From Leptospirillum ferrooxidans C2-3 (GTDB taxonomy: Bacteria; Nitrospirota; Leptospirillia; Leptospirillales; Leptospirillaceae), in the NCBI RefSeq assembly GCF_000284315.1, contig NC_017094.1, positions 1,333,486-1,397,485 on the forward strand: 64,000 nucleotides of DNA, written 5' to 3'. A program made the translations under genes and the position numbers. Of the stretch, positions 56,504-62,408 are shown piece by piece. The first letter of the stretch is position 1; each line of letters begins with the position of its first letter. A model generated the notes under the pieces. It was given only the letters and a program-made list of their open reading frames with translations, did not search any database and was not told the origin of the DNA.

Positions 56504-57010
56504 TCAGGGAATAGCAGACACAGGAATAAACATCGGGGAAGGATGTGGGTTTTTATTTCCTTCCAGAAGCGAAAATCCTAGGCTTGTGTAGAAATCAATA
56601 GCCTGGGGGTCTGCATCCAAATACATGCCGAAACAGCCTATGGACTCAGATGAAATTTTTACGAGGTCAAAGGCGAGGTTGATTAATTGCTTCCCTAATC
56701 CGGCTCTTGAATCCCTTTTATTGACCCCCAACATGATCAAACGAACACAGGGAATAGTCTTCGGTAAAGAACCAAGGTTCAAGGCAGTTAGCTGATTCAT
56801 AGAAATCGAGTGATTTGCAATCGTGAAAAAACCAACGAAGCGATCATTTTGGCTGGTATCTAAAAGGGCATAGCCTACACTGAACCCTTGCATTATCTGA
56901 TTTCTTAATGAAGATCGAACAAAACTGTCAGTAACACTATGCCCACAATTAAACTTCTTGTAGTCAGTATAAATTTTTTGAGGGTCAAAAAGCTCAATAA
57001 TAAAACTCAC
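56504..57010 (-). CDS. GNAT acetyltransferase toxin, TacT-like (168 aa)
   Basis: GNAT-fold enzyme of the kind that acetylates aminoacyl-tRNA in TacAT toxin-antitoxin pairs. CGHSVTDSFVRSSLRNQ at the start, VGFFTIANHSISMN in the middle, RLIMLGVNKRDSRAGLGKQL with the acetyl-CoA loop, MYLDADPQAIDFYTSLGF with the late Tyr. Its ATG overlaps the stop of the DUF1778 antitoxin by 4 bp, the standard layout. The frame is complete. Confidence 0.85.
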   Translation of the reverse strand: MSFIIELFDPQKIYTDYKKFNCGHSVTDSFVRSSLRNQIMQGFSVGYALLDTSQNDRFVGFFTIANHSISMNQLTALNLGSLPKTIPCVRLIMLGVNKRDSRAGLGKQLINLAFDLVKISSESIGCFGMYLDADPQAIDFYTSLGFSLLEGNKNPHPSPMFIPVSAIP

Positions 57011-57291
57011 TCATTCCTTACCGGTAGTCTAGGAAGGCTACGCAGTTCGATCATCTTGTCAGTGGGCATTGGATGAGCCTGCAACAAGCGGGAAAGCAGA
57101 ATCTGACCTTCTTCTGAGAGAGCAATCGAAGTATGGTCCCGTAGGATTGCTCGCGCCTTTTCGATGGCAGCGGCAAGCATGAATGAAGATAAATCCAACC
57201 CGTCAAGAATAGCCGCCTTACTAAGCAGTTCTTTGGCTTCCTTCGTAGTTTTTAACTCAACGCGGGCATTTTTGACTGCAATTGTACTCAT
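57007..57291 (-). CDS. DUF1778/TacA-family antitoxin (94 aa)
   Basis: Ribbon-helix-helix protein. ARVELKTTKEAKELLSKAAI and DGLDLSSFMLAAAIEKARAI are the DNA-binding part, followed by the toxin-binding tail with LSEEGQILLSRLLQAHPMP. AGGAGGGATCT precedes the ATG. A short dyad ATACG-N9-CGTAT lies about 25 bases upstream and may be the operator. Confidence 0.87.
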   Translation of the reverse strand: MSTIAVKNARVELKTTKEAKELLSKAAILDGLDLSSFMLAAAIEKARAILRDHTSIALSEEGQILLSRLLQAHPMPTDKMIELRSLPRLPVRNE

Positions 57292-57866
57292 AGATCCCTC
57301 CTACGTCTTTGATCATACGGACGATGAACGTATATGTCAATGAATAGCCTCATCTCAATATGGTATGAATCTGAAAGAAGGGAGGTAACCGTCAATGGAG
57401 CGAAGGTCTGTTTTAAACCTCTGTCACGGATATCTCGGAAGCTCGACTGTACGGCCCACGACCTGATGCCGGGATGTGATGACAACCAGAACAGCATCCC
57501 CATCAAAGACGCGAATTCAGTCACCAGATCCTTTTTGTTCCGTTGCTCAAGAGCGATTTTCAATCGTGTCTCTGTGCCGATGTCATGGTCGGGACCAAGC
57601 TCAAACATCGATGGAATCCGATCTATTGCAATAAACTGTTTTTTTAGACAGGTACCGGAGAGTTCAAGAAAAGATGGAAGGCCCTGAGGATGGTCCCAAT
57701 GACCACCATCAGGGAAAGTGAACCGGAGGGGTGAGGACGACGGGCACTTCCCCCCGGCTGACAACATTGCAGACTTTCTGAAGAAAACTGAAGAGTGGAA
57801 AAAAGTGAGGGTCCCGTCGTTTCCTTTCACTTTGGCGGAAGGGGGATAACTCCAATCCATTTCGGG
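57292..57866. other. intergenic region with an uncertain minus-strand frame
   Basis: The minus strand keeps a 190-codon frame open from 57860 to 57288 that ends in an ATGA overlap with the tacA start, as an operon gene would. It has no ribosome site, no known family, and its first third overlaps nothing conserved, so I do not call it a gene. The tacAT promoter must lie inside it. Confidence 0.3.
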
Positions 57867-58961
57867 TCACATGCCCCTGTATCCGAATGGACCGTTGAAG
57901 TAAAGGGTAACGGTCCCCATTGGGGTCACCGTTCTGGGATAATTGTCCTGATAAATGGGCATCGCCACACCGGCACCCCATGTCGCGGCAAACTTTGGAG
58001 TGGATGGCCAGGTCATCTCAATCTCTGGAGCCCACCATAGAAAAGAAAACTCCGGAGCGTTTGACGGTCCAAAGATCAGATTTTCTCCGCTTTGGGACTG
58101 TCCGTAGATTTCCAGAAGATAGCCAGCACCCCAATCGGTATTGATCACATGTTCGAATGCCCCCGCATAATACAAAAGGTTTCCATCGACCATATGGTAT
58201 CCGGGGGTCATATTCTGGGTAATGCCATTGTTGAAGGTATACCCGACTCCGACTGTCGAGGGATTCTCGATAATGTCACCTGCCTGCAAATAGATCATGA
58301 ATGGCTTGAAATGCTTTCTCACAAGTAACATGACCGCTTCATTATACGTACCGTTTCCCAGCTGATCGGCCCCGAAGTCCTGCGGGTTCAGATTCTGGTA
58401 CTGCCCACTCGGAATCCAGAAATCGAAGGTCAGGGCGATTGCCGGCCTGGCAAAGGGTAGGTAGACGTCCTCATCGCTTGTCAGACCCCATTTGACTTCA
58501 AAATGGGTATTCCCTACTCCGAAGTGGCTGGAAGAAGTTCCCTGAGGCGTTAAAGGGAAACCCTGCCAGTTCTGGACCAGAGGAATGAAGCTATCAAACT
58601 CCAGGTTATGACCAAGTCCTATCGCAAGACGCATGGGCATATACAGAGACGAGCTTCCTGGTGAAAGCCCATCATATGCAAAGGGCTCAAGATACCAGGA
58701 TCCGATCGGTTCAACCTCGGCCGTGCCTGTAAAAAAAGGTCCGCTCGTATTGGGTCCCCAAGGAAGAAAAGGGGGAGCCAGAGCCTGGAATTCCTTCGAG
58801 ATATCACTATCGCTCGAAAAGGGAACGGCCGATGGCATTTCACCGGTGCCCGCCCCCATCACCGGTGAATCTGCCCAAACCAACTCTGGAATCAAGAGAA
58901 CCACTACTGAAAATAAGACACAAAAAAAACGCAAGACTTCCCCTGGTCGCATCCGCACCAT
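57867..58961 (-). CDS. outer-membrane beta-barrel protein (364 aa)
   Basis: The signal peptide EVLRFFCVLFSVVVLLIPEL is cleaved near VWADSP. The mature chain alternates aromatic and polar residues in the manner of a porin: SWYLEPFAYDGLSPGSSSLY, MRLAIGLGHNLEFDSFIPLV, FGVGNTHFEVKWGL, PAIALTFDFWIPSGQYQNLN, WGAGYLLEIYGQSQ. It ends TLYFNGPFGYRGM, strand-like although the very last residue is not aromatic. GGGGTC lies upstream of the ATG at 58961. Substrate unknown; it may belong with the TPR lipoprotein just upstream. Confidence 0.7.
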   Translation of the reverse strand: MVRMRPGEVLRFFCVLFSVVVLLIPELVWADSPVMGAGTGEMPSAVPFSSDSDISKEFQALAPPFLPWGPNTSGPFFTGTAEVEPIGSWYLEPFAYDGLSPGSSSLYMPMRLAIGLGHNLEFDSFIPLVQNWQGFPLTPQGTSSSHFGVGNTHFEVKWGLTSDEDVYLPFARPAIALTFDFWIPSGQYQNLNPQDFGADQLGNGTYNEAVMLLVRKHFKPFMIYLQAGDIIENPSTVGVGYTFNNGITQNMTPGYHMVDGNLLYYAGAFEHVINTDWGAGYLLEIYGQSQSGENLIFGPSNAPEFSFLWWAPEIEMTWPSTPKFAATWGAGVAMPIYQDNYPRTVTPMGTVTLYFNGPFGYRGM

Positions 58962-59006
58962 TTTAAGACCCCTTGGAATCAAGAATCGTTTATCGTCAGG
59001 CAGCCA

Positions 59007-59537
59007 TTACTGCCGGGAGATCGTATTTGAGAGATCGTGTTTCTTTAAGAGGATTGCCAGGGCATGGGAGGACTCCCCATTATGAAGAAGAGCTTCCGCC
59101 ATGATTTTCCGATAACCCTTTGGCCACTTCTGCCGGGGCTCGATCAGTGAAAGGAGTGAAAGTCCTCTCTGATATTCATGATGGGCGATCAAAATTCGGG
59201 CTTCATTCAGGATATAGGGCTCATCGTTGCTTCCCGGTTTCAATGCCCGGGCCTGCTCCAGAAAACCGACCGCTTTCCGGGTATGGCCTTCCTTAAAGGC
59301 AATAAGAGCCATATTGTTCAGGATAGAAGGCTCTTCTGGATTGTCTTTCAATGCTTTTCTCAGATCCAGGCTGGCCAGCTGAAGCTTGCCGCCCTGAATC
59401 TCAGCGTAGGCTTTTTTCTCATGAATATAGGCTCTGACAGCCGGTTCAGTCGTTTCCGCACATCCGGAAAGAAACACTGCCAACAGAAAAACAGACAATC
59501 CTGTTCTCAAATGAAAGACTGTTTTTAAAATCATCAC
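59007..59537 (-). CDS. TPR-containing lipoprotein (176 aa)
   Basis: The signal sequence has the lipobox FLSGC with Cys26, so the protein is lipid-anchored. Three to four tetratricopeptide-like helix pairs follow: KLQLASLDLRKALKDNPEEP, ILNNMALIAFKEGHTRKAVG and EARILIAHHEYQRGLSLLSL. AGGAG lies seven bases before the ATG. A GC-rich hairpin (CTCCCGGG with CCCGGGGGAG) is just upstream of that site and may regulate translation. It lies 45 bp upstream of the outer-membrane protein on the same strand, so the two are probably one transcript. Confidence 0.8.
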   Translation of the reverse strand: MMILKTVFHLRTGLSVFLLAVFLSGCAETTEPAVRAYIHEKKAYAEIQGGKLQLASLDLRKALKDNPEEPSILNNMALIAFKEGHTRKAVGFLEQARALKPGSNDEPYILNEARILIAHHEYQRGLSLLSLIEPRQKWPKGYRKIMAEALLHNGESSHALAILLKKHDLSNTISRQ

Positions 59538-59664
59538 GCAACTCCTGCCATTCTTTTTGTCATTGGAAAGGACCTCCCCCGGGACACTCCCGGGAGAGAT
59601 CCTCTGATTCCTAAGCCCATGGAAGTAATTCTTTCATGGCCTCTTTTTTTATTTTTTGACCCGA

Positions 59665-59778
59665 CTAGGGCACAAGCCGACCCATGGTTCCTGGGCCAGA
59701 AAGGACATCCTGAAGATCCTTCACAATCCTCCTGAACCAGTGGATCAGTCGATCCAATACAGTTTCCATTTTTCGCAT
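59665..59778 (-). CDS. small peptide gene (37 aa), unknown
   Basis: A 37-codon frame with an almost perfect ribosome site (GGAGG, six bases before the ATG). The peptide is amphipathic and helical (ETVLDRLIHWFRRIVKDLQD) and ends GTMGRLVP. The spacing of Leu, Ile, Val and Trp puts hydrophobic residues on one face. A structured leader (59809-59838) precedes it. It could be a membrane-active or regulatory peptide, or a leader; I recognise no family. It lies between the IS1380 element and the lipoprotein gene on the same strand. Confidence 0.5.
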   Translation of the reverse strand: MRKMETVLDRLIHWFRRIVKDLQDVLSGPGTMGRLVP

Positions 59779-59808
59779 GGTTTACCTCCATCGGAGATGC
59801 TTTCTGAA

Positions 59809-59838
59809 GGCTCAAAAAGGGCATCAACAGCCCGAGCC
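59809..59838 (-). promoter_or_regulatory. nested hairpin in the leader of the 37-codon gene
   Basis: On the minus strand GGCTC-GGGC-TGTTGAT-GCCC-TTTTT-GAGCC. The inner GGGC/GCCC stem is followed by five T and would act as a small terminator. The outer GGCTC/GAGCC pairing would enclose it. The two are in the shape of an attenuator, 30 bases upstream of the ATG. Confidence 0.45.
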
Positions 59839-60137
59839 TAAAAAAGGCAAGACTCTCCGTCATTTAAGTTGTTGAATGGATGAATCAAATGTGCGGAGGA
59901 AAAGGAGGCGAAAAAGGGAAAAACACAGGAAGAACAGAACAGCGATCGAAAAACGGACATCAATCAGTCAGTCGCTGCACCCCCTTTTCCATCCGCATGG
60001 GACTAGGACCTTCGTCCACAATGACTCCTTCACTTTTGGGCGGTACCCGTTTTAAAAATCTCTTAAAAAAAACGGCCCGTCGCTCTTTTTTCCCGAAACT
60101 GCCAGACAATCATCCGACACCGGCAGCGTTGAATGAC

Positions 60138-60163
60138 AAAAATACGGGAACCCTATTCCCGTA
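60138..60163 (-). terminator. intrinsic terminator of the candidate sRNA
   Basis: TACGGGAA (60156-60163 on the minus strand side) pairs with TTCCCGTA (60143-60150), loop of five, followed by TTTTTG on the minus strand. On the plus strand a T6 run starts five bases after the stem, so it could work both ways. Confidence 0.75.
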
Positions 60164-60226
60164 CCCGCTTTTTTGAGGGAGGATCACGATCATTGCATCA
60201 ATGATAATCCGGACACTCTCAAAAGC
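60138..60226 (-). ncRNA. candidate ~89-nt small RNA
   Basis: A promoter at 60233-60261 and an intrinsic terminator at 60138-60163 define a short transcript with no reading frame of its own. From the 5' end it has a hairpin (ATCATTG, loop ATG, CAATGAT; 60189-60205), then an unpaired stretch GATCCTCCCTCAAAAAAGC, then the terminator. CCUCCCU is complementary to Shine-Dalgarno sequences, as in the C-rich seeds of RsaE/RoxS-like RNAs. No Rfam family is recognised. Confidence 0.55.
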
Positions 60227-60232
60227 GTCCAC

Positions 60233-60261
60233 ATTATGTACTCCCCTAGAGTATATGTCAA
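60233..60261 (-). promoter_or_regulatory. strong sigma-70-type promoter with a dyad in the spacer
   Basis: -35 TTGACA (60261-60256), 17-base spacer, -10 CATAAT (60238-60233). The spacer contains the dyad TACTC-TAGGG-GAGTA (60239-60253), the position used by MerR-type regulators and by many repressors. Predicted start near 60226. Confidence 0.6.
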
Positions 60262-60441
60262 GTCTTTTTTTATGACCGGACACACTCCCTTCTTCCGGAG
60301 CCATCGCATCTTCAGAAGCGCCCAAAAACCGAAATTGATTTTAAAACCGGCCCTCGCAAGAGGGGTAAAGAGAGGGAGCCTTCATTTTTGAAGGGAAGGA
60401 TTCCCCACCGCATCCCGATCTAATGGCCAGAAGAGGGAAAA

Positions 60442-61982
60442 CCGGGGTCGTTTTCGGCTTTTTCCGGGTTTTCCCCTCTCTTTTGGACGCAGGTTCCCCT
60501 CCGATCCGGTCGGGTGCGTTTTCAGGGAGGCGTGGACGAAGAGGGAAGTCTTACGGACTTCCTTCCCGGCACCAGAGCCGCCAGCACCTCTCCCGAAAGC
60601 TCCGAAAGGGGGCCAGAACATCCTCCGCCACCTTGAGAACGAGAACGCCCGCATGACGCACCACTTTCCCGGCCATCTGATAGATCTGCCATCGGACCGT
60701 CTGGACCTGGGCCCGCTTGAAGCTCTCGTCCAGAATCTGTCCCCGGAACAGGAGAAAGAGGTTGTAGGCCAGCACTCCGATCCGGAAAAAGATCCCGTTG
60801 GCTTTCGTGTCTCCACTGGGCATCCGCTCCATCCCGAACCCGATCTTCAGCTCCTTGATCCGGTTCTCGGAATCCTCTCCCCGCTGCTTGTACCAGGCCA
60901 CGACCCATTCGGGGATCTCCTTGTGGCTGGTGGCCAGGACCTTGTATCGGACATCGGGAGAAGCCTCTTTTTCTCCTTCCTCCTCCATTCCCGGCAAAGG
61001 GGTCTGCACTCGCCGGCGCACCACGATGAGCCGGAAGGCGTTGTGGGTTTTGTTCATCGTGTGCACCGTCTCGGCGATATGACCGTCCTGATAGGGCCTC
61101 CAGTCGCTCTCGGGGATCCTTCCGATCGCCTCCCGCACCGCCACATCCAGATCGGCTCCGATCACGAACCGGATTCCCCGCTCCTGGCAGAAATTGATGA
61201 CGGAGGCCTGGTACGACGCGCTGTCCGCCCGAAACCGGGCGATCCGGATCCCTGCCGGAAGACGCCGGAGGCAGTCCTTCAGAAACGGAACATGGTCCGC
61301 TCCCGGAGAGACGTTCCCCTCCCGAAATTCTTCGTGTATCACCATCCCGGAGAGTTCCTTCACGTGCCCCACCAGAGGCATGTACCCCTTCTCCCCCTTG
61401 TAGGTCCACAGGGCTTCGGCCTTTTCCGCCACGATCTGGCTGGCATCGATGTCGAGGGTCACCTCCCGGACCCAAGACAGGCCGGCCTTCTTCCACCTCT
61501 TCCGAAGTGTCTTGCCCAGAACCGACAGAACCCGGGCGATGACCGACTCCAGTGCCGACAACCCGGTGTCGGAAGCCCCCATCCGCCGGAGCCACCGGCC
61601 GAACGCGTCCGTCGACGGCACCTCTCCGATACCAAGAAGCCCCAACAGTCCCTTGTCCCGGGCGATCATCCGAAGGTCACAAAGGCTCCGTCCTCCGCCT
61701 TGCAGCATCAGCAACAGGGGGACCACATAGGACGAGGCTCTGTACCCCGCTCCGCTTCCGGGCTTCCCGAAGGCCCGGTCAATCTTCTTCTTCAGTCCGA
61801 GAGACTGAAGAAACTCCCCAAACAGAACCAGCCCCGCCTGAGAGGTGATCGTGTCGTCGGTCGATTCGAGTTTGAATGGAAGAACGGTTTGTCGTACCAT
61901 GAAGTCGCCCCTTTCGTTTCACCCTTCGGGTGGGTAAATGGTTGTCTTTGACAACATCCATTTTACCAGAAACGACAAGGGG
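60442..61982 (-). mobile_element. IS1380-family element (about 1540 bp)
   Basis: Ends at about 60442 (CCGGGGTCGTTTTCGG) and 61982 (reverse strand CCCCTTGTCGTTTCTGG) are imperfect inverted repeats. The limits may be off by a few bases, and no target duplication was clear. It holds one intact transposase. Confidence 0.7.
60551..61900 (-). CDS. IS1380-family transposase (449 aa)
   Basis: DDE transposase, intact. YRASSYVVPLLLMLQGGGRS and LLGIGEVPSTDAFGRWLRRM in the N-terminal part, WVREVTLDIDASQIVAEKAE with the first Asp, KGYMPLVGHVKEL, IARFRADSASYQASVINFCQ with the second Asp, and AWYKQRGEDSENRIKELKIG with the catalytic Glu. SGDTKANGIFFRIGVLAYNL is the family's C-terminal signature. Length normal. 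GC-rich; likely still able to move. Confidence 0.9.
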   Translation of the reverse strand: MVRQTVLPFKLESTDDTITSQAGLVLFGEFLQSLGLKKKIDRAFGKPGSGAGYRASSYVVPLLLMLQGGGRSLCDLRMIARDKGLLGLLGIGEVPSTDAFGRWLRRMGASDTGLSALESVIARVLSVLGKTLRKRWKKAGLSWVREVTLDIDASQIVAEKAEALWTYKGEKGYMPLVGHVKELSGMVIHEEFREGNVSPGADHVPFLKDCLRRLPAGIRIARFRADSASYQASVINFCQERGIRFVIGADLDVAVREAIGRIPESDWRPYQDGHIAETVHTMNKTHNAFRLIVVRRRVQTPLPGMEEEGEKEASPDVRYKVLATSHKEIPEWVVAWYKQRGEDSENRIKELKIGFGMERMPSGDTKANGIFFRIGVLAYNLFLLFRGQILDESFKRAQVQTVRWQIYQMAGKVVRHAGVLVLKVAEDVLAPFRSFRERCWRLWCREGSP

Positions 61983-62408
61983 TTTCTTGTTTTTTTCCTC
62001 ACTTTTTCTCTTTCAATCGCGGTTCTTGGGAAGCGGTGAGGAATTGACGAAACAGAAGGGAATTCGTTATCTTTAGACTGGATGTTGTTCAGGTCAGGAA
62101 GTTTGTCTCCTGGCTTTTGTTCCAATTCAAAAATGGGACGAAGAAGTCCCCATCTTTTCAACCATCTCAAATACCTGCCGAGACCTGAAGGGTTTCCACC
62201 CTCACCTTCGACGGCCGGGTACCTCCCCCAACTTCAAAAAGACGACGCAGTCACAAAGAACGCCATAACATCCGACCATGTGCGCTTCCATTCCCACGCC
62301 TTGGCCCAACTCTCATTTTGCTCAAAATCCGGAAAGACAACGGCGTCTTGGAACTGCCCTATCCCTCAGGGATAGGATCAGACAAACACTTTAAAAGGAG
62401 AAACAGAA
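61983..62408. other. intergenic region upstream of ferredoxin
   Basis: No gene is supported. A perfect 8-bp hairpin CCTATCCC-TCA-GGGATAGG (62358-62376) lies 32 bases before the ferredoxin ATG and is presumably in its 5' leader; it has no T-run. Confidence 0.45.

Follow-up and report, generated by a model that had tools for sequence, protein, structure and literature searches.

Published RcnR operators have the form TACT-G6-N-AGTA, and type 1 sites of the CsoR/RcnR family contain a single G/C tract of 3-8 bases with inverted repeats placed 6-9 bp apart (PMC7055735, PMC3902906). The nickel-responsive pncrA promoter, which serves nickel resistance, carries a GC-rich inverted repeat (PMC3046157).

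Here we describe a locus in a 64,000-nucleotide stretch of the Leptospirillum ferrooxidans C2-3 genome (hereafter the window), where a sequence-only reading had proposed a stand-alone trans-acting small RNA of ~89 nt with a free anti-Shine-Dalgarno tract. Our analysis favours a different interpretation, to which we assign a probability of roughly 0.6: the RNA is the 5ˊ leader of an operon and is ended early by a terminator specific to the window locus. This reading is preferred because the promoter is operonic by homology, no second promoter-like site was found on this strand from 59000 to 61500, and the RNA occurs in no other searched genome. That the RNA might be only a leader had been named beforehand among the cases that would refute the small RNA proposal, and this case now appears the more likely one. 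The features at and near the promoter are as follows.

60233-60261, minus strand: sigma-70 type promoter TTGACA-N17-CATAAT, seen in the sequence and as the top profile match
60239-60253, minus strand: predicted RcnR/CsoR-type (type 1) operator TACT-CTAGGGG-AGTA, from the sequence and the published motif
60138-60226, minus strand: predicted ~89-nt transcript, a 5ˊ leader ending at an intrinsic terminator (fold z = -4.8)
60166-60226, minus strand: rod-like stem in the predicted fold, GCUUUUGAG paired with CUCAAAAAAGC, enclosing a 7-bp hairpin
60175-60185, minus strand: GATCCTCCCTC tract, the proposed anti-Shine-Dalgarno sequence, mostly paired according to modelled pair probabilities
60136-60166, minus strand: intrinsic terminator hairpin with a T5 tail (z = -3.9)
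60321-62030, minus strand: IS1380-family insertion sequence with transposase NF033539, its edges set by four other copies

Promoter and predicted operator

The promoter (TTGACATATACTCTAGGGGAGTACATAAT) has a -35 box TTGACA at 60261-60256 and a -10 box CATAAT at 60238-60233, separated by a 17-bp spacer and matching the consensus at 11 of 12 positions. The spacer is filled by the dyad TACTC-N5-GAGTA (60253-60239, minus strand), and both elements are as the sequence-only reading had given them. The TACT and AGTA arms, their spacing of 7 and the G4 tract conform to the type 1 pattern. The dyad is thus predicted to be an RcnR/CsoR-type operator, from which we infer repressor binding and an inducer. 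The match therefore supports, at the sequence level, the earlier guess that the dyad is read by a metal-sensing protein, and this guess is well supported when the promoter family described below is considered together with the operator motif.

No further operator copy with fewer than three mismatches was found in the genome, and a scan of the minus strand from 59000 to 61500 revealed no second promoter-like site. Upstream, 60 bp separate the -35 box from the edge of the IS1380 element, whose four further genome copies are 100% identical, which indicates recent activity.

A promoter family associated with repressor genes

All PF02583 (RcnR/CsoR/FrmR) genes of Leptospirillaceae were gathered and their promoters compared, and the regions 5ˊ of TPR-protein homologues in relatives were inspected for gene order. 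A profile (PWM) built from eight promoters of relatives' PF02583 genes ranks position 60261 first among the 127,944 positions scanned in the window, with 24-26 bits compared to 11 for the runner-up; restricted to the spacer, the profile ranks this position 3rd or 14th. The pattern TTGACANNTANNNNNGGGGAGTANANNAT, derived from the window and relatives and allowed up to two mismatches, yields nine matches in 21 genomes, and its reversed-pattern control yields one. Seven of the nine are located directly 5ˊ of PF02583 genes, one (G011:C35) is 5ˊ of a degraded copy, and the last is the window itself. Membership of the window promoter in a family otherwise found almost exclusively 5ˊ of RcnR/CsoR-family repressor genes is well supported by these sequence comparisons.

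The six promoters of relatives' small-ORF operons are TTGACANNTAGNNNGGGGGAGTATATATT or near it, and the window promoter is identical to them at 20-22 of 29 bases. Within the spacer, 12-13 of 17 bases are held in common with the promoters of G003, G005 and G007. The AGTA arm is retained in five of the six relatives' promoters, with the opposite arm reading TAGG or TAGA. In relatives, the promoter heads a module that begins with the repressor gene, continues with sORF1 and sORF2, and closes with TPR/outer-membrane or RND metal-efflux genes. The PF02583 gene precedes both small ORFs in G005, G010 and G011; TPR/outer-membrane genes end the module in G005, G010 and G011:C75, and a TolC/RND-type efflux cluster does so in G011:C5 and G011:C35. 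A cation-efflux protein and RND-type efflux genes are neighbours of the relatives' loci. By eye, a nickel/cobalt-type transporter is also found nearby in G008.

Fold, terminator and conservation of the short transcript

None of 200 dinucleotide shuffles folds as well as the 91-nt RNA (z = -4.8). A perfect 7-bp hairpin (ATCATTG-N3-CAATGAT, 60205-60189, minus strand) is present as earlier described, and the transcript indeed contains no convincing reading frame. A long-range stem, overlooked in the sequence-only reading, turns the 5ˊ 60 nt into one rod; these 60 nt alone have z = -2.7. Because of this stem between GCUUUUGAG and CUCAAAAAAGC, the GATCCTCCCTC tract is predicted to be mostly paired, with unpaired probabilities of 0.94, 0.48 and 0.61 for the central U, C and C and at most 0.06 for the remaining eight bases. 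The tract was previously taken to be unpaired, and this description does not hold: in the model, the accessible seed expected of a trans-acting small RNA is reduced to about three nucleotides.

The terminator has the form proposed earlier, with a perfect 8-bp stem (TACGGGAA/TTCCCGTA, 60163-60143) followed by T5 to 60138, and it folds independently of the upstream sequence. It is located between the promoter and the operon (60166-60136, with sORF1 at 60019), as is typical of a leader or attenuator. Upstream pairing with the 5ˊ arm of the terminator was sought and no antiterminator was found; therefore, an attenuator switch is not claimed and read-through is assumed. Termination at 60163-60138 could simply be constitutive. 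A promoter matching at least 11 of 12 positions and, no more than 200 nt behind it, a strong terminator are found together once in the window and in 2 of 300 Markov-1 windows.

No homologue of the RNA was found by DNA search of 60 relatives, nor did a covariance model of the 91-nt RNA find a match in 20 other genomes or at loci carrying a like operon, in homology searches where two same-genus genomes are only 72-80% complete. The unit of promoter, hairpin and terminator, whose conservation in relatives had been put forward as a check, is thus unmatched in these sets. DNA searches of plasmids gave chance matches only, and Rfam gave nothing at the gathering score, with sub-threshold matches that are implausible and at chance level. 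The leaders of the like operons in G014 and G008 are not unusually stable (z = +1.4 and +1.1) and contain no such terminator, which was checked on the operon strand for G014.

The downstream operon and a second predicted structured leader

Beyond the terminator, the minus strand carries the following features.

59960-60019, minus strand: sORF1, 19 aa (VDEGPSPMRMEKGVQRLTD), with an AAGGAG-type ribosome-binding site and an equivalent ORF in nine other relatives' loci
59892-60019, minus strand: conserved structured leader RNA overlapping sORF1, from the folds of ten loci
59665-59778, minus strand: sORF2, 37 aa (MRKMETVLDRLIHWFRRIVKDLQDVLSGPGTMGRLVP), with a GGAGG site; a Leptospirillaceae family (own copy E = 3.5e-18)
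59007-59537, minus strand: TPR-repeat protein (Pfam TPR), likely a lipoprotein, with homologues in relatives
57867-58982, minus strand: outer-membrane protein with a borderline Phenol_MetA_deg match and a homologue in the corresponding operons of relatives

Across the ten loci, sORF1 spans 15-20 aa; in the repressor-headed modules of relatives it has 16-20 aa and sORF2 has 35-37 aa. The sORF2 family, which has no Pfam match and ends in PGxxGRLxP, is found at ~15 Leptospirillaceae loci, 3ˊ of sORF1 in ten of them, and lies 5ˊ of outer-membrane/RND efflux genes. Among the searched genomes it is limited to Leptospirillaceae, bar one weak match with an internal stop. Homologues of the TPR protein are present across Leptospirillaceae.

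Structurally, the leader RNA at sORF1 forms a GGAC...GTCC stem at the start codon and then a long purine/pyrimidine helix (~59997-59980 with 59910-59892), in which the purine arm is inside the ORF and the pyrimidine arm is CGCCUCCUUUUCCUCCG. Both elements recur in the minimum-energy fold at every one of the ten loci, namely the window and L134, L136, L113, L101, L102, L104, L100, L099 and L098. The z-scores range from -0.5 to -3.4 across the loci (-3.4 in the window), and covariation is modest, with double changes in 4 of the 13 pairs of the consensus. Because base composition in the pairing tracts is biased, the conserved leader RNA is a lead and not proof. Nothing resembling this RNA was found in Rfam. 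It may act as a leader-peptide element or as a cis-regulatory one that responds to metal.

Elsewhere in the window, a GNAT-type protein (168 aa) and an upstream antitoxin-like protein of 94 aa are encoded at 56504-57340 on the minus strand. A TTGACA-N17-TATGAT promoter at 57340 precedes the two genes, which by eye resemble a GNAT/DUF1778 toxin-antitoxin pair.

The missing local repressor and a candidate regulator encoded elsewhere

No remnant of a repressor gene was found by tblastn between the window promoter and sORF1. The layout of the window recurs in G014, where promoter TTGACAGAGATTTGAGGGGAGCATATAGT is followed by a ~130-nt leader, sORF1, sORF2 and the outer-membrane protein gene, likewise without a repressor gene. 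Like genes in G008:C63, also without a repressor gene, lie behind a weaker promoter-like site. A natural parallel is found at L113 (G011:C35:34532 onward), which has an intact RcnR-type promoter, a degraded repressor gene, sORF1, sORF2 and an efflux cluster.

The L. ferrooxidans genome, a single contig of 2,559,538 bases, contains a single PF02583 gene (G000:C1:98334-98585), which does not adjoin the window promoter. The encoded protein matches Pfam with E = 3.6e-18 and is nearest to FrmR among solved structures; by family name it comes closest to RcnR and FrmR, each below the curated cut-off. It is without the Cys35 of RcnR/FrmR, and therefore the inducer is not secure. The operator of this gene (AATAGTTGGTAGGGGTATT) is identical to that of the window at just 7 of 17 spacer bases, which makes recognition of the window site in trans uncertain. 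The gene stands before a paralogous TPR/outer-membrane operon, with an ISNCY element now in between.

The ISNCY insertion at G000:C1:98319-100700 (L054, L122) may have uncoupled or rewired the paralogous operon. Another element of this family (NF033594, ~1385 bp) is located at 585-1948 of the window, and the genome contains several copies (L054, L056, L057, L058, L060) in which target duplications of 16-17 bp are apparent and the end motif TTGTCCGSTTTT is repeated; solo ends (L055, L059) also occur.

Alternative explanations

A stand-alone, metal-regulated RNA of ~89 nt that pairs with mRNAs via CCUCC, transcribed from a promoter freed by loss of the repressor gene, would suit several of the findings: a promoter and terminator of its own bound a short transcript without a reading frame, the fold is stable (z = -4.8), the terminator is independent of upstream sequence, and chance seldom produces such promoter-terminator pairs (2 of 300 simulated windows). 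We nevertheless consider this unlikely, because relatives have a like promoter in front of an operon, the CCUCC tract is mostly paired in the model, and no homologue emerged from 60 relatives by DNA search or from 20 genomes by covariance model. The same three observations count against the original proposal of a stand-alone RNA with a free anti-Shine-Dalgarno tract. It is quite doubtful that loss of the repressor gene made the promoter that of a discrete metal-responsive trans-acting RNA, leaving the operon under the control of the downstream leader RNA and leader peptide. The missing repressor gene, the recent IS1380 insertion 60 bp upstream and the lack of conservation of the RNA would also be consistent with a relic, in which what remains of the lost gene's promoter and operator is decaying and the hairpins arose by accident. 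Such decay is rather improbable for a promoter that is near consensus (11 of 12) and carries a dyad closer to the RcnR motif than several functional-looking copies, and the reading frames of both small ORFs, the TPR protein and the outer-membrane protein are intact.

The -10/start region might instead be the worn end of an ISNCY-family element, whose genome copies begin TGTAGGGAGCACATAATCTGTCCGGTTTTG, and over 28 of 132 bases the site matches an ISNCY-like end of G026 at 89% identity; the IS-like pattern has one match in the genome contigs, which is the ISNCY-like end. This origin is highly improbable: a profile of 19 ends gives the site E = 1.1 per 64 kb and the true end at 585 7e-18, and the promoter family accounts better for these bases. 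The terminal repeat TGTAGNGAGYACATAATCTGTCCG at the -10 region, striking by eye, was rejected on this calibration. The leader interpretation has difficulties of its own. A classical attenuator switch is unsupported where no antiterminator competes with the terminator, the leaders in G014 and G008 have no such terminator, and the genome's PF02583 gene has a differing operator and encodes a protein without Cys35.

A model for regulation of the operon

The leader interpretation builds on features visible in the DNA, namely promoter homology, operon context, the missing local repressor gene and the terminator. The promoter at 60261-60233 would drive a leftward operon of sORF1, sORF2, the TPR protein and the outer-membrane protein. 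Presumably, an RcnR/CsoR-family tetramer occupies TACT-CTAGGGG-AGTA between the -35 and -10 boxes and keeps RNA polymerase out until a signal, Ni/Co or a related one, frees the promoter. The candidate for regulation in trans is the PF02583 protein encoded at 98 kb, the cognate gene having probably been lost from the window operon. Transcripts from ~60226 would mostly end at 60163-60138 to give the ~89-nt leader RNA, and read-through past the terminator, in an amount that we infer, would feed the operon.

The guess of an isolated small RNA is thereby replaced by a testable circuit, in which the candidate repressor gene of an RcnR-type and probably Ni/Co-responsive promoter lies at another genomic site. 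The host is an iron-oxidising acidophile of metal-rich conditions. The analysis also exposes a conserved module of two small ORFs, both unannotated, with a structured leader before metal-efflux/outer-membrane genes in the searched Leptospirillaceae genomes.

Comparison with known systems

The locus resembles trans-acting small RNAs with CU-rich anti-Shine-Dalgarno seeds in its own promoter, its intrinsic terminator and its length of ~90 nt. However, its CU tract is predicted to be mostly paired, the RNA is not conserved in the searched genomes, and the promoter is an operon promoter in relatives. Like transcription attenuators, it carries a terminator in the 5ˊ leader of an operon, although no antiterminator was found and there is no leader peptide 5ˊ of the terminator. 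The predicted operator is similar to those of Escherichia coli RcnR in its 15-bp extent, TACT/AGTA arms, single G tract and position in the promoter; it differs in having a G tract of 4 rather than 6 (CTAGGGG), one site instead of tandem sites, and no adjacent repressor gene. NcrB of Leptospirillum ferriphilum UBK03 protects -4 to +25 of pncrA before the operon ncrABCY, whereas the window site is between the -35 and -10 boxes before sORF1-sORF2-TPR-outer-membrane protein; the two systems have in common the genus by name, a PF02583 (DUF156) repressor and a site in the promoter (PMC3046157).
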